Shown piece by piece: positions 3,091 through 40,429 of a stretch of DNA of 64,000 bases. A program made the position numbers and the translations under genes. How positions within the stretch are numbered: position 1 is the first letter of the stretch; each line of letters begins with the position of its first letter. The notes below the pieces were generated by a model that saw only the letters and a program-made list of their open reading frames with translations, did no database searches and was not told the DNA's origin. The stretch spans positions 1 through 64,000 of the forward strand of contig NZ_BCNF01000012.1 in assembly GCF_001485495.1 (NCBI RefSeq), in the 5' to 3' direction. This DNA comes from Gordonia desulfuricans NBRC 100010 (GTDB taxonomy: Bacteria > Actinomycetota > Actinomycetes > Mycobacteriales > Mycobacteriaceae).

Positions 3091-3132
3091 CGACGAGGCC
3101 GCGCCCAGGTCGGACCGGGCGCGGCCTCGTCG
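3091..3132 (-). terminator. Strong hairpin between the racemase gene and sigC
   Basis: A perfect 16-bp G+C-rich stem with a 10-nt loop lies 20 nt past the racemase stop codon and 26 nt before the sigma-factor start. It should end the permease-racemase transcript and isolate it from sigC. Confidence 0.65.
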
Positions 3133-24063: not shown

Positions 24064-24104
24064 CCGAAAGGCCCGTTCCCCACACCGGGGAGCGGGCCTT
24101 TCGG
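24064..24104 (+). terminator. Rho-independent-type terminator of the S10 operon
   Basis: An 18-bp stem (one G-U pair) with a 5-nt loop starts 20 nt after rpsQ. The base of the stem has an A-rich left arm and a matching TTT-containing right arm. It confirms that the ribosomal transcript ends here. Confidence 0.85.
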
Positions 24105-28353: not shown

Positions 28354-29205
28354 TCAGGATGCGGTGGCGGCCTTGCGGTAGCCGTGCAGCGCCGGATAGA
28401 GGCACACCGCCAGGGTGCCGACCGTCCACAGGGTGACCTTGATCAGGTTCTCGGTGAGCGGCCCGCCCGCCGCGAGCGCGCGCATCACCTCGATCGCCGG
28501 ACTCATCGGCTGGTTGGCGACGATCGGTTCGAGCCACCCCGGGTATTCCGAGGCCGGGGCGAATCCGGTGTTGAAGAACATCAGCACGCTCGACACCAGC
28601 GAGAGCAACGGCACCAGGGGGGCGCCGGGGGAGAAGTTCACCGCGAGCGCGAGGACGATCGAGGCAAAGGCGATACCGAAGCCGACGGCGACCGCGTAGA
28701 TGCCCAGGATCGCCCACGGGTCGGGGTTCATCCGGAAGCCCACGAGCCAGCCGACGACGATGAGCACGGTGGTGGTCAGCACCATGCGGACGATCTCGCA
28801 GACCAGCCGGGAGCTCAGATCGGCCGCGCGGTTGATCGGCAGGACGTACAGGCGGGACAGCAGCCCGGACGTGCGTTCCAGGTTGAGCCGGACACCGGCC
28901 ACCACCGAACCGAACATGGCGCTGACGACGATCACCAGGGGGACGGTGCCGTAGGCCGCGTCCTGGCCGGTGGCCCGTCCGATGGCCTCACCGAGGACCA
29001 CCTTGAGCATCACCATGGTGAGCACCGGCATCAGGAACACCTGCAGGAAGGTGCTCTTCTCGTGGAAGATCACCCACAGCTGCCGGGCGCTCAGGGCCCG
29101 CGTCTGGGCGAACCATGCGGCGAACGACGACTCGGCCGACGCCCCCTGAGCGGTCGGGCCGGTCTCGGGCAGCGTGATGTCGGACATCCGGTTCGTGGTG
29201 GTCAT
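28354..29205 (-). CDS. ABC-2 type exporter permease (second permease)
   Basis: 283 residues with six predicted helices in the ABC-2/DrrB-DrrC arrangement: a cytosolic N-terminus ending in the amphipathic stretch ALSARQLWVIFHEKSTF, then MPVLTMVMLKVVLG and GTVPLVIVVSAMFGSVVAGV, the conserved loop LNLERTSGLLSRLYVLPINR, and a re-entrant region LVSSVLMFFNTGFAPASEYP before the last helices. The ATG overlaps the stop of the first permease gene by 4 nt. It is the third gene of the exporter operon. It would form the membrane channel with the first permease, driven by the ATPase. Confidence 0.85.
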   Translation of the reverse strand: MTTTNRMSDITLPETGPTAQGASAESSFAAWFAQTRALSARQLWVIFHEKSTFLQVFLMPVLTMVMLKVVLGEAIGRATGQDAAYGTVPLVIVVSAMFGSVVAGVRLNLERTSGLLSRLYVLPINRAADLSSRLVCEIVRMVLTTTVLIVVGWLVGFRMNPDPWAILGIYAVAVGFGIAFASIVLALAVNFSPGAPLVPLLSLVSSVLMFFNTGFAPASEYPGWLEPIVANQPMSPAIEVMRALAAGGPLTENLIKVTLWTVGTLAVCLYPALHGYRKAATAS

Positions 29206-30011
29206 CGGTGCACCTTCCGGGTCCCGAGGTAGGTGAGGACGGCGCCGCCGACGATGAGGGCCACGCACCACCACACCGCGGGCGCCACGTAGCTCCAGGT
29301 CGCCGTCCCGTCGTCGAAGGCCCGCATGGCCTTGGCGAACTGCGACACCGGCTGGTTGCGTGCGAACGGGGCGATCCAGTCGGGGAACAGGATCGCGGGC
29401 ATGAATCCGGTCGAGAGCATGCCCAGGATCAGCAGGGGCAGGCCGATCGCCTGGCTGGTGGTCTCGGGGCTGTCGGCGAGCAGTCCGATGGCGTCGGAGA
29501 GCACCGCGACGCCGATCCCGACCGTCAGGACCAGCGCGTAGAGCCCGATCGTGCCGCCGAGACCGCCGCCGGGCCGCCAGCCGGTGAGCAGGCTCGCGAT
29601 CGCCGCACAGACGACCGAGATCACCAGCAGCACGAGGTTGGCGCTGAATCGGGCCAGGATCGGGGCGGCCGACCAGACCGGCATGGTGCGGAAGCGGGTG
29701 GTGATCCCGGTGGTGGCGTCCAGGCACGAGCGCATCGCCGCCGACGACGCGACGAAGCCCACCGACTGCAGGGCGATGATCGGCATCAGGAACTTCGCGT
29801 AGTCGATGTCGGCGTACTGGGACATGATGCTGCGCAGCGGCACGTAGAACGCGACGGCGAGGAAGGCCGGCGACACGAACGCGAAGATCACCTCGCCGTT
29901 GCGCATGATCGAGCCGAGGCCGCGCATCGTGAGCGTCCACCACTGGCGCACGGCCTCGATCCGCGCGCCGTCGCCCCCGGCCTGTTCCCGGGGCAGGGTC
30001 AGCTGCGTCAT
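29202..30011 (-). CDS. ABC-2 type exporter permease (first permease)
   Basis: 269 residues with six helices and the same plan as its neighbour: VIFAFVSPAFLAVAFYVPL, the loop TGITTRFRTMPVWSAAPILA, and LLILGMLSTGFMPAILFPDW. It belongs to the daunorubicin-resistance type of transporter (DrrB/DrrC), which in mycolata exports lipids and peptidolipids such as PDIM. It overlaps the ATPase gene and the second permease gene by 4 nt each. The first helix region starts after a 30-residue cytosolic N-terminus. Confidence 0.85.
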   Translation of the reverse strand: MTQLTLPREQAGGDGARIEAVRQWWTLTMRGLGSIMRNGEVIFAFVSPAFLAVAFYVPLRSIMSQYADIDYAKFLMPIIALQSVGFVASSAAMRSCLDATTGITTRFRTMPVWSAAPILARFSANLVLLVISVVCAAIASLLTGWRPGGGLGGTIGLYALVLTVGIGVAVLSDAIGLLADSPETTSQAIGLPLLILGMLSTGFMPAILFPDWIAPFARNQPVSQFAKAMRAFDDGTATWSYVAPAVWWCVALIVGGAVLTYLGTRKVHR

Positions 30012-31771
30012 CGGCCGGTCCGGGTGGTGGGCGGTGCCGCGGCGGGCATGGCGTCGGTGTCCGGCTCGGTCCCGGTGGTGACGACGGGGGTGTCGGTGGT
30101 CCGGGACACGATCGGCGGGTGCTCGCGTGCCGGGTCGGTGAGGGTCAGGAAGACCTCGTCGAGGGACGGACGTTGCAGCGAGACGTCGGCGAGCCGGATG
30201 CGGCCGTCGGTGGCCCGCGCGACGATGGTGACCAGGGTGTCGGCGCCCTCGGTGGTCGGTACCACCAGTGCGGTGTCGGGTGACTGCTCGTCGTCGACGA
30301 TGTCGCCGAGGACCGACCGGAGCCGGTGGAGGTCGGCCGGGTTGGCCGGGGTGACCAGATAGTGGGCGGAGCCGGTGAGGGCCTTGAGCTCGTCGGCGGT
30401 CCCGTCGGCGATCACCTGTCCACGATCGATGACGACGATCCGGTCGGACAGGGCGTCGGCCTCCTCGAGGTACTGCGTGGTGAGCATGATGGTGACCCCC
30501 TCCGCGCGCAGGTCCTCGACCAGCGTCCAGACCTCCTGGCGGCTGCGCGGGTCGAGTCCGGTCGTCGGTTCGTCGAGGAAGACCACGTCCGGACGGGTGA
30601 CCAGACCGCAGGCGATGTCCACTCGCCGGCGCATACCGCCCGAGTAGTCGCCGACGCGGCGATCGGCGGCCTCGGTGAGGCCGAAACCGTCGAGGAGTTC
30701 GGTGGCCCGGGCCTTGGCCGCAGACTTCGACAACCCCATCAACCGACCGAACAGCACGAGGTTCGCCCGCCCCGACAGCGCTTCGTCGAGGGCCGCGAAC
30801 TGACCGGTCAGCATGATCGACCGCCGGACCCCGGACGGGTCGTTCGCGACGTCGTGGCCCGCCACCGTCGCGGTACCACCATCGGGCTTAAGCAGGGTGC
30901 AGAGCATGTTCACGATCGTGGTCTTCCCGGCGCCGTTGGGGCCGAGGAGGGCGAGGATCGATCCGCGGGGAACGGAGAAGTCGACACCGGCGACGGCGGT
31001 CTTGTCGCCGAATTTCTTCTCCAGGCCGGAGACGGATATCGCGAGATCTGTGCTGTTCGGCGCGGGAATTGCGGTGGAGTGTAGTTCGAGTTGCAAATTA
31101 TCTAGATCATTCGATCTAGTTAGTTGATCAAATGATCTGTCGAACTGGAATGATTGATCAAATTCGGCCGGGGGATTTTCCGGTGTCGGCCGGTGGCGAT
31201 GATCGTCGTCGATCCGGCCGGTCGGGGGAGTCGCGGGCGGCGCCGGCCTGGTGTCCGTCGAATGTATGACCGGGGGTGGGCCGGGTATGCCGGTCGTGGG
31301 GGTGTCGATGCCGGGTGAATCCGGCAATCCGCCGATGTCAGATCCCGGATCCGCGCTTTCTTCCGGCGGGTTCACGGGAGCACGGTGGCGGGCGTGGCGA
31401 CCGCCGGCGGCGGTCGGGGGCGGCGGGGCGGGGGTGTCGGAGGCGGCCTGATCGGTGCTCGCGGCGGGGGTCAGGGAGTCCCAGATGCTGGCGGTGTCCG
31501 GTGTGTCGAGTGCGATGAGATCGGCTGGGGAGAGTGGATCGCTCAGGGGATCCGGCTTCGGTCCTCGTCCCGCCCCAGAATTCGAGTTACACTGCTGTAC
31601 AGGCATTTTGTCGCCTGGGTGCGGCTCCGGCGCCTTCTCGGCGCGTGGTTCTCCGTGCCCTGCTGATGTCATCGGCCGGTCGGGATGGGCGCCGTTCGGA
31701 TGATGACGGGGCGTGGCGGGCAGGGGTGCGAGGCGTGGCGATGCCGACCGCCTGGTGGCTCCCTCTGTCAT
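30008..31771 (-). CDS. ABC exporter ATPase (DrrA-like) with long disordered N-terminus
   Basis: 587 residues, far longer than the usual 310-340 of DrrA proteins. Residues about 240-560 are a complete ATPase domain: Walker A GPNGAGKTT, signature DYSGGMRRR, Walker B VVFLDEPTTGLD, and a switch His replaced by Gln in MLTTQYLEEADALSDR, as is common in this family. The C-terminal DrrA-type extension holds RPSLDEVFLTLT. The first 235 residues are Pro/Asp/Ser/Thr rich without any domain. The ATG at the far upstream end is supported by an AAGGGA box 7 nt away and by a promoter-like pair further up. A shorter form starting inside the AT-rich patch near 31095 cannot be excluded. It is the first gene of the exporter operon and divergent from the NRPS genes, whose product it probably exports. 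Confidence 0.82.
   Translation of the reverse strand: MTEGATRRSASPRLAPLPATPRHHPNGAHPDRPMTSAGHGEPRAEKAPEPHPGDKMPVQQCNSNSGAGRGPKPDPLSDPLSPADLIALDTPDTASIWDSLTPAASTDQAASDTPAPPPPTAAGGRHARHRAPVNPPEESADPGSDIGGLPDSPGIDTPTTGIPGPPPVIHSTDTRPAPPATPPTGRIDDDHRHRPTPENPPAEFDQSFQFDRSFDQLTRSNDLDNLQLELHSTAIPAPNSTDLAISVSGLEKKFGDKTAVAGVDFSVPRGSILALLGPNGAGKTTIVNMLCTLLKPDGGTATVAGHDVANDPSGVRRSIMLTGQFAALDEALSGRANLVLFGRLMGLSKSAAKARATELLDGFGLTEAADRRVGDYSGGMRRRVDIACGLVTRPDVVFLDEPTTGLDPRSRQEVWTLVEDLRAEGVTIMLTTQYLEEADALSDRIVVIDRGQVIADGTADELKALTGSAHYLVTPANPADLHRLRSVLGDIVDDEQSPDTALVVPTTEGADTLVTIVARATDGRIRLADVSLQRPSLDEVFLTLTDPAREHPPIVSRTTDTPVVTTGTEPDTDAMPAAAPPTTRTGR
31102..31161. repeat. AT-rich island with three dyads inside the exporter ATPase gene
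   Basis: A 7-bp inverted repeat (CTAGATC, 4-nt spacer, GATCTAG) at 31102-31119 is followed by two TTGATCAA palindromes at 31124-31131 and 31154-31161, 30 bp apart. Base composition and codons here (AGA, CTA, TTT, AAT) differ sharply from the rest of the gene. Confidence 0.7.
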
Positions 31772-31797
31772 GCGGTGGTCCCTTCGCAGCTCCGAGG

Positions 31798-31832
31798 CGG
31801 ATTCTTTACGAAAGCGAATCCGGCGTCGTCAA
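31798..31832 (-). promoter_or_regulatory. Candidate promoter and operator of the exporter operon
   Basis: On the minus strand TTGACG (31832-31827) and TAAAGA (31808-31803) are 18 nt apart, placing the transcript start about 26 nt before the ATPase ATG. An inverted repeat, CGGATTC-N11-GAATCCG (31798-31822), covers the -10 box and part of the spacer, a good site for a dimeric repressor. Confidence 0.4.
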
Positions 31833-32197
31833 CGTTACCCATTGTCTGGTTGATCGCGGGTTGACTTGATCGGGTTACAGATCGGTCGGGTAGTCGCCGG
31901 CCGGCCGAGTACCCCGATCGCACCCGTCCGGGTATGACGCTACGCGGGAGCCCGTCGTCGGCATTTGCGAGCCTTTGAATGAATATGTCTGAATTGGATC
32001 GGGAATAGCCGATCGAGGTCATGTCGGCCTTGTAACGTTTTCGGTGTGCCGATCGACGGCATTGAATGGGTGGCGTCCACCACCCCTGGTGATACGAGGT
32101 GATCATTGATGGCAGGAAGAGGGTCCGGCCCGAACGGCTGAGAGGTGTTTCTCCAGGGCGAGGTATCACGGGTATCGAAGATGAGCGAGAGTGGGAC
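31833..32197. other. Regulatory gap between exporter and NRPS genes
   Basis: About 365 nt, less G+C-rich than the surroundings, with no gene. It contains two spaced TTGATCG-type direct repeats near 31850-31880 and a small GGGTGG/CCACCC dyad near 32068-32085. I could not place a confident promoter for the NRPS genes and saw no DtxR/IdeR-type iron box. Confidence 0.4.
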
Positions 32198-35100
32198 ATG
32201 ACCGATCTGATGGCGCAGGCGCAGGCTGCCGAGGTGCGAGAGCGCCGGCTGCTGCCCCTGACCGCCGCACAGCGGGGATTGTGGTTCGCCGAGACGCTCT
32301 CGCCCGACTACTCGGTCAACATCGCCCAGTACGTCGACATCCGGCACGAGCCGGGCGGTCTCGACATCGACCTGCTGGTGCAGTGCTGCTACGACGTGGG
32401 CAAGCTCGTCGAATCGCCGTACATCCGGCTCGTCGAGGTCGACGGTGTCCCGATGCAGTACGTCGACGTCGACTACGACCAGCGCGTCGACGTCGTCGAC
32501 CTGCGCGATGCCGACGACCCGGTCGCCACGGCCCAGGACTGGATGCGCCGTGAGTACCGTCGGCCCGTCGATCTGCTGAACGACCAGCTCATCGTGACCA
32601 CGATGCTGCTCGTCGGCGAGGACCGGACCTTCTGGTACGGCCGCGCTCACCACATCATCGTCGACGGTTACGCCGCGCTCGGGATCGTGCGCCGCACCGT
32701 CGACCGGTACAACGCCCTGCGGCGGGGCGACGAGCCCACCGAGAAGGCCCCGGCGGGGATGGCCGAGATCGTCGAGTACGAGGACGCCTACCGCACCAGC
32801 GCACGCCGCGTGTCCGACCGCGAACACTGGCTCGAGCGGGTCGCCGACCTCCCCGAGGGCGTGACCCTGGCCCGGCACAAGGTCAAGGCACCGCTGTCGT
32901 TCGACAACATCGTCGCCGGTCACGAGCTCGACGCCACCCTGCAGACGCGGATCGACGAGCTGGCCCGCGAGGCCAACAGCTCGATCGCGGTGGTGCTGAC
33001 CGCCGCCTTCGGCGCATTCCTGGCCAGGATGAGCGATGCCGACGACATCGTGATGAGCCTGCCGGTCACCGGCCGGGCCACCGCCCGCATCCGGACCGCG
33101 GGCGGGATGGTGTCCAATGCGCTCCCGGTCCGACTCCGCCGGGTGCGTGAGCAGACCGGGCGCGAGCTGGTCGCCGCCGCCCAGCTCGAGCTCATGGGGG
33201 CGCTGCGGCATCAGCGCTACCGCTCCGACGACATCCGGCGCGATGCGGGATTCGACGCCTCGTCGGTCACCTTCGGTCCGACCATCAACATGGTGTTCTT
33301 CGACGACGAGGTCGCGATCGACGGCACCACCATGGAGTACCGCATCCTCACCTCGGGAATCCTCGAGGATCTGCTGATCAACCTGTACCAGGCGAGCCCC
33401 GGTGCGCCGGTGGTGGTCGACCTCCACGGCAACCCGCATCTGTACTCGTCGACGCAGATGCACGATCACCTCGAGCGGTTCCTGATCTTCGTCGAGCGGT
33501 TCGTCGCCGACCTCGATGTCCGGGTCGACGACGTGGACGTCCTGCGGCCGGTCGAGCACACGGCACTGGCAGACCTCGAGACCGGTGGGCCGGGCCCGGT
33601 GTTCGCCCCCGACGCCGACCTGCTCGACGGTTTCACCGGCCAGGTGCGCGACCATCCGGACCGCATCGCGATCATCGAGGGCGAGCGGCACTGGACCTAC
33701 GGTGAGTTCGATCTGCTCCGGCGCGTACTCGCCACATGGATCGCCAGGAACGGCGTCGTGGCAGGCGATCGGGTCGCGGTGGTGTTGCCGCGCGGGATCG
33801 ACCAGGTCGCGGCCATCTATGCGACCCTGACCCTCGGCGCCGCCTACGTCCCGGTCGATCCGGACCAGCCCGCCGCCCGCCGACGGTCGGTACTGGACAC
33901 CGCGGCCCCCCGCCTGGTGGTCGACGCCGCCTTCCTCGAGACCGTGTTCGGCGAGGACCCGAGGTTCGACGCCGTCGACCCGCAGGAGGTCGACGCGCCC
34001 GACCGGTTCCGCCGGTACCCGTCGGGCCATGCCGCCTATGTCCTGTTCACCTCCGGCTCGACCGGTGTCCCCAAGGGGGTCGAGGTCTCCCACGAGGCGG
34101 TGCTGAACCGGCTCGCCTGGGTGCAGGAGCACTTTCCGTTCACCGCCGACGACGCGTTCCTGTACAAGACGCCGACCACCTTCGACGTGTCGGTGCCCGA
34201 ACTGTTCTGGCCGCTGCAGGTCGGTGCGCGGATGGTCATCGCCCGACCGGGCGGGCATCGGGACCCCGACCATCTGCGGCAGCTCATCGAGTCCGAGTCG
34301 ATCACGGCCGTGCACTTCGTCCCGTCGATGCTCGAGGTCTTCGTCGACGCGGTCGAGGAGTCCACGGCGCTGGTCCCGCCGACCCTGCGCCGGATCATCA
34401 CGTCCGGGGAGGCGCTCTCGCCGGCCCTCGCGCAGCGGGTACTCGACCGCGCCGACATCACCCTGATCAACCTGTACGGCCCCACCGAGGCCGCCGTCGA
34501 CGTCACCGAGTACGTGGTGGAGCGTGACGTCCCGATCATCCCGATCGGGCGCCCCGTGCCGGGCACCGAGTTGCGCGTCCTCGATGCCAACCTGCGCCGG
34601 GTTCCGGTGGGTGTGCCCGGCGAGCTCTACCTGTCCGGCGTGCAGCTGGCCCACGGCTACCTCGGCGCCCCCGCACGCACCGCCGAGCGGTTCGTCGCCG
34701 ACCCGTTCGCGACCGGCCGGCGGATGTACCGTACCGGCGACCTGGCCCGATGGGATGCCGACGGCCGCCTCGACTACCTGGGCCGCACCGACTTCCAGGT
34801 CAAGATCCGTGGCCAGCGCGTGGAACCGGGCGAGATCGAGGCCGTCCTGCTCGGCGATCCGTGCATCGACCACGCGGTGGTGGTGGTCCGCGCCGACGGC
34901 CCCTCCCCGGCGGTCATCGGCTACGTCAAATGCGCCGGCGCGCCGTCGGATTCGGCGACCCCCCACACCGATTCCCCCGGCACCGATTTCCCCCACACCG
35001 ATGTCCCCCACACCGAGGCGCTGGTCGACCGGCTGTTGCGGGCCTGCCGCAAACAGCTGCCCTCGCACATGGTCCCCGCATCGATCGTGGTACTCGAGAA

Positions 35101-38100
35101 GTTCCCCACCACGGTCACCGGCAAGCTCGACCGTACGGCGCTTCCGGCCCCGGCGGCCCGCTCGCACACCTCGGTCTACCAGGCACCCCGCACGGCCGCC
35201 GAGGTCGCGGTGGTGCGGCTGCTCGAGGATCTACTCGGAGTCGGTCGGATCAGCTTGTCGGACAACATCTTCGCGCTCGGTGCGGACTCGCTCACCGCGG
35301 CCCGGCTGGTCGCCCGGGCACGGTCGGGTCCGGGTCTGGCGATCACGCTGGCCGATGTGTTCGACAGTGCGACCGTCGCCGATCTGGCGAGCACCGCGAC
35401 ACCACGGGGCGCCGACGAGCACCCGCCGCTCACCCCGATGCCGCGGCCGGAACGAATCCCGTTGTCGCACCCGCAGACCCGACTCTGGCTGATCAACCGG
35501 ATGGACCCGTCCTCGGGCGTCTACAACATGCCCGGTGCCCTGCGGCTCGGTCCCGCCGTCGACACCGCGGCGGTCCGCGCCGCGCTGCGCGACGTCCTCG
35601 ACCGCCACGAGGCGCTGCGGACGATCTTCCCCGAGGGCTCCGGCGAGCCCCATCAGCTGATCACCCCGACCGCGCAGGTCGACCTCGACGCCGACCAGGT
35701 CTTCGCGGTGACCGACGTCGCCCCCGATGCGCTGGCCGCGACGATCGGCGACGCTGCCGCAGCGGGTTTCGATCTCGTCGCCGACCACCCGACCCGGGTC
35801 CGGCTGCTGCGGGTCGTCGACGCCGCAGGGACCGTCACCGATCACGTCCTGGTGGTGGTGCTGCACCACATCGTCGGGGACGGGGCGTCGCTGGCGCCGC
35901 TGATCGCCGACCTCTCGACGGCCTACGCGGCGCGCTCGGCAGGACATGCGCCGCAGTGGCGGCCGTTGCCGGTCCAGTACGCCGATTACGCACTGTGGCA
36001 CCGGGATCTGCTCGGTGACATCACCGACGAGCAGTCCCTGCTCCGCCGTCAGCTGACGTTCTGGCAGGACGAGCTCGACGGGCTGCCCGCCTTCGTGTCG
36101 CTGCCGACCGACCGCCCGCGTCCGGCCACCGGCAGCGGGCGCGGGGCGCATCTCGACGTCGATCTCGACCTCGAGACGTCGTCGGCGATCCGCGCACTCG
36201 CATCCGTCCAGGGGGTCACGACCTTCGCGGTGTTCCAGTCGGCCCTCGCCGCGGTGATGTCGCGGTTCGTGGGCAGCGGCGAGGTCCCCATCGGCACCGC
36301 CGTGTCCGGTCGCGACGATCCGCGGCTGGCCGACCTGGTGGGCATGTTCGTCAACACGGTGATCCTGCGTACCACCGTCGACCCCGCCGACACCGTGGGC
36401 GGCCTGCTGCGCCGGGCGCACCGGGTCCGCGCTCGTGCACTCGGCAATGCCGACGTCCCGTTCGAACAGGTCGTCACCGCACTCGGCGTGCGCACCTCGC
36501 GGTCACACGCCCCGCTGTTCGGCGTCGAGCTGGTGATGCAGGGCGATCACCTCGGTCGCCTGCTCGGCGGCCGTCCGACCGGGGCCCGACCCGCCGGGGA
36601 CCGCGGACCGGCCGACGCCGTCATCGACGCCCGGGTGCCCGCAGCCAAATACGACCTCTCGGTGCATGTCGCCGACCCCCGCGGCTCCGCTGCGGCCACC
36701 CCGATCAGCATCGAGTTCACCTATGCGTCGGACCTTTTCGAGGAAGCGACGATCGCCAGATTCGCCGACGGTCTGATCGCGGTGCTGCGCGGGATGGCGC
36801 AGGCCGACGTCGATGCGGTCGGCGTCGCCGACCTGCTCCGGTGCTCGGCCGACGAGCTCGCACCGATCCGCGAATGGTCGCACGGTGCCGCCACCGACAT
36901 GCCGGCCACCACCCTGCCCGACCTGATCGCCGCGGCCGTCGCCGCAGCCGGCGACCGGCCCGCGCTGATCGCCGGGGACCGCGTCGTCGACTACGCCGAA
37001 TTCGGTTCCCGCGTCAACGGTCTCGCCCGCGACCTGATCGCCGCGGGGATCGGCCCCGACGACACCGTCGCCGTCGCCATCGACCGGTCGGCCGAACTGC
37101 TCGTCGCGATCCACGCGGTGGTCGCCGCCGGTGGCGCCTACCTGCCGGTGGCGGTCGACACGCCGGTCGAACGCGCGCAGTACATGGTGCGCACCGGTGG
37201 TGTGCGGCACCTGCTCGTCGCCGCCGGGCACACCCCGGGCTTCGCGGACGCTCTCGGACCGGCGGTGGCGGTGACCCCGGTCGACACCGCGATCCCGATC
37301 GAGACCGTCACCGCCCGCGGTGCGGCGCCGGTGACCGACGCGGACCGGCACGCCCCGCTGCGCACCGACGACGCCGCCTACACCCTGTTCACCTCCGGCT
37401 CCACCGGCCGGCCCAAGGGCGTGACCGTGAGCCATGCGGCGATCGGCAACCGGCTGCGGTGGATGCAGGACGCCCACCGGCTGACCGCCGACGACGTCGT
37501 GCTGCAGAAGACGCCGGTCACCTTCGACGTCTCGCTGTGGGAACTGTTCTGGCCCTTGATGACCGGGTCGACCCTGGTGATCGCCGAACCGAACCGGCAC
37601 GGCGACCCGTCCTATCTGCGTCAGGTGATCAACCGTCACCGGGTGTCGGTGGTGCACTTCGTGCCGTCGATGCTCTCGGCCTTCCTCGACGCGCTCGACA
37701 CCGTCGAGTTCGCGTCGATGGAATCGGTGCGGCTGATGTTCACCTCGGGGGAGGCGCTGCCCGCTCGGGTCGCCGCCGCGGTGCTCCGCGGACTCCCGAC
37801 CACCCGCCTGCACAACCTGTACGGCCCCACCGAGGCGGCCGTGGACGTCACCGCCCACGAGGTGGTGGCGGGTGAGACGGTGGTGCCGATCGGCCGTCCC
37901 GTCGCCAACACCACCACCCATGTGCTCGGACCCCGGCTCGAACCGGTCCCGCAGGGTGTGCCCGGCGAGCTGTACCTCGGCGGGGTCCAACTCGCCCGCG
38001 GGTACGCCGCACAGGGCGGGCTCACCGCCGAGCGTTTCGTGGCCGATCCGTTCGGTTCGGACGGGGCCCGGCTGTACCGGACCGGCGACCTCGTGCGGTG

Positions 38101-40425
38101 GAACTCGGCCGGGGAGCTGGAATACCTGGGACGCAACGACTTCCAGGTGAAGCTGCGCGGCCGCCGGCTCGAGCTCGGCGAGATCGAGGCGGCGCTGGTG
38201 GCCGTTCCCGGGGTGGTGCACGCCGCGGCGACGGTCGTCGACCTGTCGGCGGGCCAGTCGCTGGTCGCCTACTACGCACCCGATACGACACCACCGGCGA
38301 CGGTCGCGCGGACACTCGCCGAGCACCTGCCGGACTTCATGGTGCCGACCATCTGGATGCCGCTGCCGGCGATCCCGCTGAACGCGGCGGGCAAGGTCGA
38401 CCGCAAGGCCCTGCCGGAGCCGGTGATCACCGTCGCGGAGACGGTCGCGCCGAGCACCGACACCGAGCAGATCGTGGCCCGGGTGTACGCGGAGGTCCTC
38501 GGTGCCGATCACGTGAGTGTCACCGAGTCGTTCTTCGATCTCGGCGGGAACTCGCTCAGTGCAACCAAACTCGCGGCACGGTTGTCGGCGGAACTCGAAT
38601 ACGACATCACCGTCGCCGCGATCTTCGCCGCCCCGTCGGTGCGGGAGCTGTGTGATCATGCGGCCCGGCTGCACCGGCACCGCCGGCGCCGGCTCGAACC
38701 CGCCGACCATGACGGCGTCGCCCCGCTGTCGACGGTGCAGCGCGGGATGTGGCTGATCAACCATGCCGACCCGGACTCGCCGGCCTACAACGTCGCGATG
38801 GCCCTGCACCTGTCGGGAGCGCTCGACCGGGACGCGATCTCGGCCGCGGTCGAGGACGTGATCGCCCGGCACCATGCCCTGCGCACCCACTATCCGATGG
38901 TCGACGGCGACCCGATCCAGACGGTGCTCGACACCGCCACCGCGCTCGAGCGGATCGAGCGACGGATGGACGAGCAGGGTCACGGCGACCCGGCCGCGGC
39001 GATCGCGGCCTTCACCGGCCGGGGATTCGACGTCACCGCGTCACCGCCGGTGCGGGTCCTGTTGCTGGCCACCGGCTCCGACGAGCACGTGCTGGTCGCG
39101 GTGGTCCACCACATCGCCGCCGACGGCATCTCGATGGGTCCGCTGGCCCGAGATCTCATGTCGGCCTACGCATCACGTGTCGGGGGAGTGCCGCCGAACT
39201 GGTCGGACATGCCCGTCGACTACCTCGACTTCACCCTGTGGCAGCAGGAGATCCTCGCCGGCACCGACGACGACGGGAACTCCGAGGCCCAGCGTCAGCT
39301 GGCCTACTGGACCCAGCGGCTCGCCGGCACCCCGGCCCGGCTGGAACTGCCCACCGACCGGCCGCGGCCCCGCACCCCGAGCTTCACCGGCGGTGCGGTC
39401 GACTTCGATCTCGACCCGGACCTGGTGGCCGGCCTCGAGGTGGTGGCGCGCGGGCACAATGCGACGCTGTTCATGGTGATGCAGGCCGCCTTCGCGCTGT
39501 TGCTGAGCCGGTTGACCACGCAGCGCGACATCGTCATCGGCACCCCGCACGCCGGCCGGGGCGAGGCCGAACTCGATGACGTCGTCGGCATGTTCGTCAA
39601 CACCCTCGCCCTGCGTACCCAGATCCGTGACGACGAGAAGTTCGCCGAGATGCTGCACCGGGTGCGCGAGGACGATCTGGCCGACATGGCCTGTGCGGAC
39701 ATCGCTTTCGACACAATCGCCGATGCGGTGCTGACCTCGAGGCCGACCAGTCACAATCCGATCTACCAGGTCATGTTCGCCTTCCAGAACTTCACCTTCC
39801 CCACGGTGACCCTCGACGGCCTGACGGTCACGCCGCTGTCGGAGGAACTGACCGCGGCGAAGGTGGACCTGCAGCTGACGCTCTACCCACCGCAACCGGC
39901 CCCCCGTGCGGTGCAGGACGAGATCCCCCAGGAGGAACCGGCGATGAAGGCCCAGATGATCTATGCGGCCGATCTCTTCCGCCGCGAGACCGTCGAGCTC
40001 TACACCCGCCGCTACCTCCGGGTGCTCGAGGACATCGCCGAGAACCCGCAGGTCCTCGTCGGCGACATCTCGGTGACCACCGCCGAGGAGGACGCCGCAG
40101 CGGGCGAGGGGTCCGACGACATCGCCGCGCTGCCACTGCCGCAACTGGTCGACCTCGCCGCCCAGGTGGCGCCCGAGTCCGGTGCCGTCGGCCGCGACGC
40201 CGTCCCGGTCACGTTCACCGCGATCGCGGCGATGACCACCGCGATGGCGGCGGTGCTGCCGGACCGGGATTCGGCGCTGACCACCGCGCTGATGAGTTTG
40301 ATCCCGACGCTCGCCGCCGATGGACCGGCGGCGCTCGGCGAGGTGCTCGAAGCCATCCGGTCCACCGCGACGGAGGTCGTCGCCGGCGGGAACCGTACAC
40401 AGGTGAGGGAAGGAACGACTCAGAC

Positions 40426-40429
<4 letters not shown>
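32198..40429 (+). CDS. Non-ribosomal peptide synthetase 1: C-A-T-C-A-T-C
   Basis: 2743 residues, starting at the ATG giving MTDLMAQAQ. Domains: C1 about 15-450 (HHIIVDG at 151), of EntF type by ALRHQRYRSDDI and FGPTIN; A1 about 470-960, pocket code DVPHISLVDK, Ser-like but with Pro in place of Trp; T1 with Ser1031 (LGADS); C2 about 1086-1540 (HHIVGDG at 1223); A2 about 1552-2075, code DVWHFSLVDK, the classical Ser code; T2 with Ser2119 (LGGNS); C3 about 2175-2628 (HHIAADG at 2304). A tail (2630-2743) resembles a shrunken A-domain start. All catalytic His/Asp and carrier Ser residues are present. C1 has no carrier before it, so an acyl or aryl starter must come in trans. C3 has its A domain on the next protein. 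Codes were read by eye against GrsA. Confidence 0.95.

Follow-up and report, generated by a model that had tools for sequence, protein, structure and literature searches.

An AT-rich, palindrome-rich patch in the N-terminal tail of an exporter ATPase of DrrA type from Gordonia desulfuricans, most likely acquired by insertion

The H-NS downstream regulatory element of proU is located inside the first gene. In actinobacteria, a study on S. venezuelae (PMC6584129) reports that 19 of the 63 expression-altered genes with Lsr2 bound upstream and/or over their coding sequence belong to specialised metabolic clusters, and PMC7002338 reports that the binding of CgpS, an Lsr2-like protein, rises with the length of the AT stretch and suffers from G/C interruptions. 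Short hairpin-forming stretches that are open in the frame of a host protein gene are found among the Rickettsia RPE and the bacterial MITEs, presented in PMC2229807 as repeat families of about 100-200 bp (105-146 bp for the RPE). Regarding the exporters, the ATPases of DrrA type are represented by the family TIGR01188; in the collection of papers that was searched, none combined DrrA transporters with N-terminal extensions in actinobacteria, or with NRPS in Gordonia.

We analysed a stretch of 64,000 nucleotides from Gordonia desulfuricans NBRC 100010 (contig NZ_BCNF01000012.1, positions 1 to 64,000), which is referred to here as the window. Within the gene of a DrrA-type ATPase there is a short AT-rich patch, and we hold it to be moderately probable that this patch is a recent, species-specific, in-frame insert, tolerated in the tail of the exporter and translated with the protein. 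The features of the locus, in window coordinates, are the following:

29202-30011, minus strand: DrrB-type membrane subunit (PF12698 and PF01061 over cut-off, TIGR00025 below cut-off)
30008-31771, minus strand: DrrA-type ABC exporter ATPase, 587 aa (open reading frame, TIGR01188, PF00005)
31083-31165, minus strand: AT-rich patch, codons 203-230 of the ATPase reading frame, with an 81-nt G+C of 0.333
31083-31146, no strand: 64-nt stretch bounded by the inverted repeat AGTTCGA/TCGAACT, candidate insert ends at chance level
31102-31119, no strand: dyad CTAGATC-N4-GATCTAG (plus strand CTAGATC-ATTC-GATCTAG)
31104-31138, minus strand: hairpin in the fold of the ATPase mRNA, 13 pairs (one G-U), 9-nt loop
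31124-31131, no strand: palindrome TTGATCAA, first copy (motif position)
31154-31161, no strand: palindrome TTGATCAA, second copy (motif position)
31478-31552, minus strand: tail segment DPLSDPLSPADLIALDTPDTASIWD, its first half common to three relatives
31772-32197, no strand: intergenic region between the divergent ATPase and NRPS genes, G+C of 0.457 at 31961
32198-40429, plus strand: NRPS, with three condensation, two adenylation and two carrier matches

The ATPase resembles the DrrA-type exporters in its core, which matches TIGR01188 with 360.3 bits over aa 252-545, above the curated cut-off of 312.45, thus placing the protein in the DrrA subfamily, and which matches PF00005 over aa 262-404. 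It differs from them in a tail of about 243 residues that precedes the core (window 31043-31771), the TIGR01188 match beginning at aa 252. The gene starts with an ATG at 31771, with a Shine-Dalgarno-like GAAGGGA upstream, and its stop is overlapped by the DrrB-type gene. The intergenic region on the other side ranks second in the window for low G+C, and carries several TTGATC and GATC motifs. A single-sequence structure model of the whole ATPase was uninformative (mean pLDDT of 37, no secondary structure before residue 243); as judged from its composition and variability, the tail is probably disordered.

The preliminary description of this DNA had pointed to an AT-rich island with three dyads and an atypical coding composition. 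Re-reading of the sequence confirmed its coordinates and motif positions, all three dyads were present (31102-31119, 31124-31131 and 31154-31161), and the G+C at codon positions 1, 2 and 3 was indeed foreign to the host gene, with 0.52/0.22/0.26 for the patch as opposed to about 0.7/0.5/0.9 for the ATPase. The patch is a real and extreme compositional island. The G+C content of 31083-31163 (81-nt start at 31082/31083) is 0.333 versus 0.70 across the 64-kb window, the lowest for any 81 nt of the window, where the next clusters have 0.457 (at 31961) and 0.469. It was also the lowest (next, 0.37) in 863,000 bases sampled from the same genome, a non-random sample made of the window plus 799 kb from larger contigs and equivalent to around 16% of the 5.43 Mb, in which 18 islands have a G+C of 0.42 or less and the patch is the sole one at 0.34 or less. 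On the minus strand it encodes the peptide EFDQSFQFDRSFDQLTRSNDLDNLQLE, which holds all but one of the tail's five aromatic residues. The ATPase frame runs through the patch with no stops in 28 codons, the other two minus-strand frames having 2 and 5, and the chance of an open 28-codon frame at this composition is 0.13.

The palindrome TTGATCAA occurs 31 times in the 5.43-Mb genome, two of them in the patch and 30 bp apart, and two of the five CTAG sites of the 64 kb are also there. The pattern GATC-N4-GATC-N(3-15)-GATC-N4-GATC was found at two places in the genome, the patch and another one dissimilar to it, and GATC-N4-GATC is mildly enriched across the window (7 against 3.1 expected, with 7 being reached in 5 of 100 shuffles). 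On the mRNA strand of the ATPase, AGATCATTTGATC-AACTAACTA-GATCGAATGATCT gives a 13-pair stem with one G-U (arms 31104-31116 and 31126-31138), a hairpin absent from the preliminary description. The motif and hairpin tests were picked post hoc, once the patch had been seen. The fold z was -3.3 for 83 nt and -4.5 for 171 nt, and at each length 0 of 200 shuffles did as well; when the patch was shuffled with its dinucleotides kept, 4 of 3000 sequences had a stem of at least 13 pairs. The fold energy of the patch was matched by 4 of 2000 codon-order shuffles, and by 15, 89 and 274 of 1000 synonymous recodings that were AT-rich, uniform and GC-rich, respectively. The hairpin is unlikely for the composition of the patch, yet G-U-allowed stems of at least 13 pairs are common elsewhere in the 64-kb window. 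Two G+C-rich hairpins of 18 pairs (G-U allowed), perhaps transcription terminators, were also observed in the window at 24064-24104 and 3091-3132.

For comparison, 60 regions around DrrB homologues were taken from 56 other genomes of the genus. The ATPase core was obtained in 58 of these regions (L102 and L157 gave none), making 59 loci with the window. At least 100 open codons precede the core in 57 of the 59, with a median of 211, the count going from the stop to the core, which makes it a maximum for the length of the tail. The tail sequences are highly divergent among loci, and long hypervariable N-terminal tails are common on the DrrA-type ATPases of the genus (window, L100-L158 and L028). 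The motif LxxWR, used as a regular expression, was found in 30 of the 59 loci, the window not being among them, and DPL[ST]DPLxPADL in four (window, L105, L107 and L109). The tails of the latter three gave the three best alignments of 58 by z, with 0, 1 and 0 of 200 shuffles scoring as high, followed by those of L155, L103 and L144, whose scores were reached in 3, 2 and 3 of 200. When the tail was used as a protein query against 59 genomes of the genus, no convincing homologue emerged (best E of 0.0047) and the places of L105, L107 and L109 were not listed, so the homology of the tail rests on direct alignment and on one motif. Because this motif lies upstream of the patch and is common to three relatives, and there is a ribosome-binding site at the ATG at 31771, the full-length ATPase is probably translated with its tail included.

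A stretch similar to the patch was found in none of the 58 other loci, the lowest 81-nt G+C of their tails being 0.457 versus 0.333 here, and 0.556 in the last 240 nt before the core. Of the 60 regions fetched, 26 contain an NRPS related to that of the window, and the five loci with the closest NRPS start (L143, L142, L147, L135 and L146; 61-66% identity) have a G+C of at least 0.63 in those 240 nt, measured in 20-nt steps. As a separate observation, two DrrB-type copies separated by about 66 kb (L104/L105, L106/L107, L100/L109 and L102/L103) are present in four genomes (G032, G077, G075 and G026), and an NRPS homologue accompanies each copy within the stretch fetched. A search of genome contigs with the membrane subunit returned five loci, from three Natrialba, a Bacteroidales MAG and a Streptomyces, none of them informative.

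The composition of the patch and its absence elsewhere make an insertion the most likely event at its origin. According to this, AT-rich, palindrome-rich DNA would have entered the ATPase tail fairly recently, as an insert of around 28 codons within a long, fast-changing and probably disordered N-terminal tail, and weak constraint on the tail, together with an unbroken reading frame, would explain why it was tolerated. Both the hairpin and the dyads would have arrived with the inserted DNA, and the patch would be transcribed and translated as part of the full-length ATPase. We infer that the insertion is recent and that the patch has no dedicated function. The scar of an insertion, as the preliminary description had suggested, fits with the lack of the patch in 58 loci and with its foreign codon composition, and it is proposed here rather than read from an alignment, since the tails are unalignable across the patch and no empty site was obtained among the homologous loci.

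The patch shares with the Rickettsia RPE and the bacterial MITEs, as PMC2229807 describes them, its short length, the capability to form a hairpin and a frame that is open in the host protein gene. It differs from these repeat families in being a single copy of 64-83 nt, among the matches listed for its own and 58 other genomes of the genus, and in that its candidate terminal repeat (7 bp) and flank repeat are at chance level. The inverted repeat AGTTCGA/TCGAACT (31083-31089 and 31140-31146) forms an outer stem in the 83-nt fold that is lost in the 171-nt fold, and its flanks, GGAGTGT/GGAATGA, are imperfect, with 5 of 7 positions in agreement. Of 2000 shuffles, 231 contained a 7-bp inverted repeat at such spacing, as did 66 of 771 windows taken from the 64 kb, so that the reading of 31083-31146 as an element with terminal repeats stays at chance level. 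Neither a donor nor a second copy of the patch was found, and no boundary or target duplication could be recognised with certainty. With up to 14 matches scored per genome, the second-best match listed in its own genome had an E of 0.03, and the best one listed in the 58 other genomes an E of 0.012, both over 19-28 nt. A dispersed repeat is unsupported, the matches listed being at chance level and the GATC pattern lying at two unlike places. A phage or plasmid origin was also rejected on chance-level matches: the patch had no match in a phage sequence search, the plasmid search gave one 26-base match in the flank of the query, no viral contig matched the hairpin pattern, and an exact 18-mer of the patch was found once, in a viral contig of 35% G+C whose flanks are unrelated, and was taken as chance.

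The most interesting of the remaining readings is that the patch is a candidate nucleation site for the xenogeneic silencer Lsr2, which from there may bridge to the divergent, AT-richer promoter located 0.6-1.1 kb away and silence the exporter and the NRPS in the manner of H-NS. We regard this as unlikely. The patch resembles the Lsr2-bound sites of actinobacterial clusters (PMC6584129) in being an AT-rich drop of a high-G+C genome that adjoins an NRPS, in an organism that encodes Lsr2-domain proteins, with four domain matches over the cut-off and one of them marginal (29.8 versus 29.6 bits). Following counts modelled on that S. venezuelae study, and using half-overlapping segments of 500 bp, the 500 bp around the patch contain 10 AT cores and 7 AT-rich stretches of 20 nt, for sample means of 1.2 and 1.5, as would be predicted for a region bound by Lsr2. 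These values were equalled or exceeded by 17 and 74 of 3411 segments, respectively, a ranking that favours the patch because its segment was centred on it and the others lay on a fixed grid; for the divergent promoter the figures were 59 and 38 of 3411. Against this reading, the patch is short, interrupted by G/C and not conserved in the homologous loci, unlike the Lsr2-bound sites of PMC6584129. Its longest pure A/T run has 7 nt, while CgpS prefers long, little-interrupted AT stretches. It is also similar to the downstream element of proU (PMC10656529) in being AT-rich, downstream of a promoter and possibly able to bridge upstream, a likeness of sequence and position. That such a site was newly gained by this species, through an insert in the disordered tail leading to Lsr2-dependent, bridge-type repression of the exporter/NRPS pair, seems to us somewhat less likely still.

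The clustering of the dyads, with two of the 31 genomic copies of TTGATCAA separated by 30 bp, could also correspond to an operator for a sequence-specific regulator of GATC-centred palindromes (TTGATCAA and CTAGATC-N4-GATCTAG). However, the dyads are not conserved in the homologous loci, and inspection of all the 29 other TTGATCAA sites showed ordinary G+C (0.56-0.70 over 70-88 bp) and flanks unlike the patch, with seven of them sharing, as seen by eye, the flanks of one repeated gene sequence. The existence of a TTGATCAA regulon was rejected, as these 29 sites have no context in common with the patch, and we consider an operator function improbable.

It is quite improbable, too, that the mRNA hairpin acts in translation speed, in a folding pause or in RNase processing between the tail and the ATPase core. 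Its 13-pair stem, the fold z values and its position just ahead of the first folded domain would suit such a role, and selection on a hairpin that is beyond nearly all the dinucleotide shuffles is conceivable and could count against a plain insert. But the window has many stems of comparable length, no Rfam family was detected at E up to 1 in 30900-32250, which includes the hairpin, and stems of at least 13 pairs were found in two other tails (L131 and L123), at different positions of the tail.

Selection of the patch peptide as a short binding motif, with aromatic FDxSF repeats in the tail, is very improbable. The concentration of aromatic residues in the patch agrees with it, and the tandem FDQSF/FDRSF, with three synonymous codon differences and one replacement, hints, over no more than five codons, at selection on the peptide, which would speak against a plain insert. 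Against the motif reading, AT-rich codons favour Phe anyway, and the single-sequence structure prediction was uninformative. FDxSF was present in one of the 59 tails, that of the window itself, so the protein-level conservation of FDQSFQFDRSFDQL that the preliminary description had named as evidence against its own view was not seen.

Finally, an internal promoter in the patch driving a short ATPase, the other half of what had been proposed, is disfavoured and extremely improbable, since the GATAAT hexamer read on the minus strand is opposed by a scan for sigma-70 consensus sites that found 0 promoter-like matches in 30700-32300 (0.3 expected in shuffles), and since from the patch to Walker A there is a single in-frame ATG/GTG/TTG, TTG226, located in the patch itself and preceded by GATCGAATGATCTAGATAAT without a Shine-Dalgarno-like run, the next in-frame start being GTG287, just past Walker A, in such a way that a short intact ATPase, itself unlikely, would need TTG226 or a rarer start codon. 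Of the initial interpretation, therefore, the insertion scar was retained, and the internal promoter and short form were rejected on the start codons and the promoter scan.

If the patch is merely a tolerated insert, as we favour, the hypervariable tails of exporter ATPases can take up DNA of foreign appearance. Should it bind Lsr2, the patch would offer a clean test case for a regulatory element arising in coding sequence beside a biosynthetic cluster, and, if the silencer reading is true, the freedom of the protein tail to vary would be what lets regulatory DNA evolve there.
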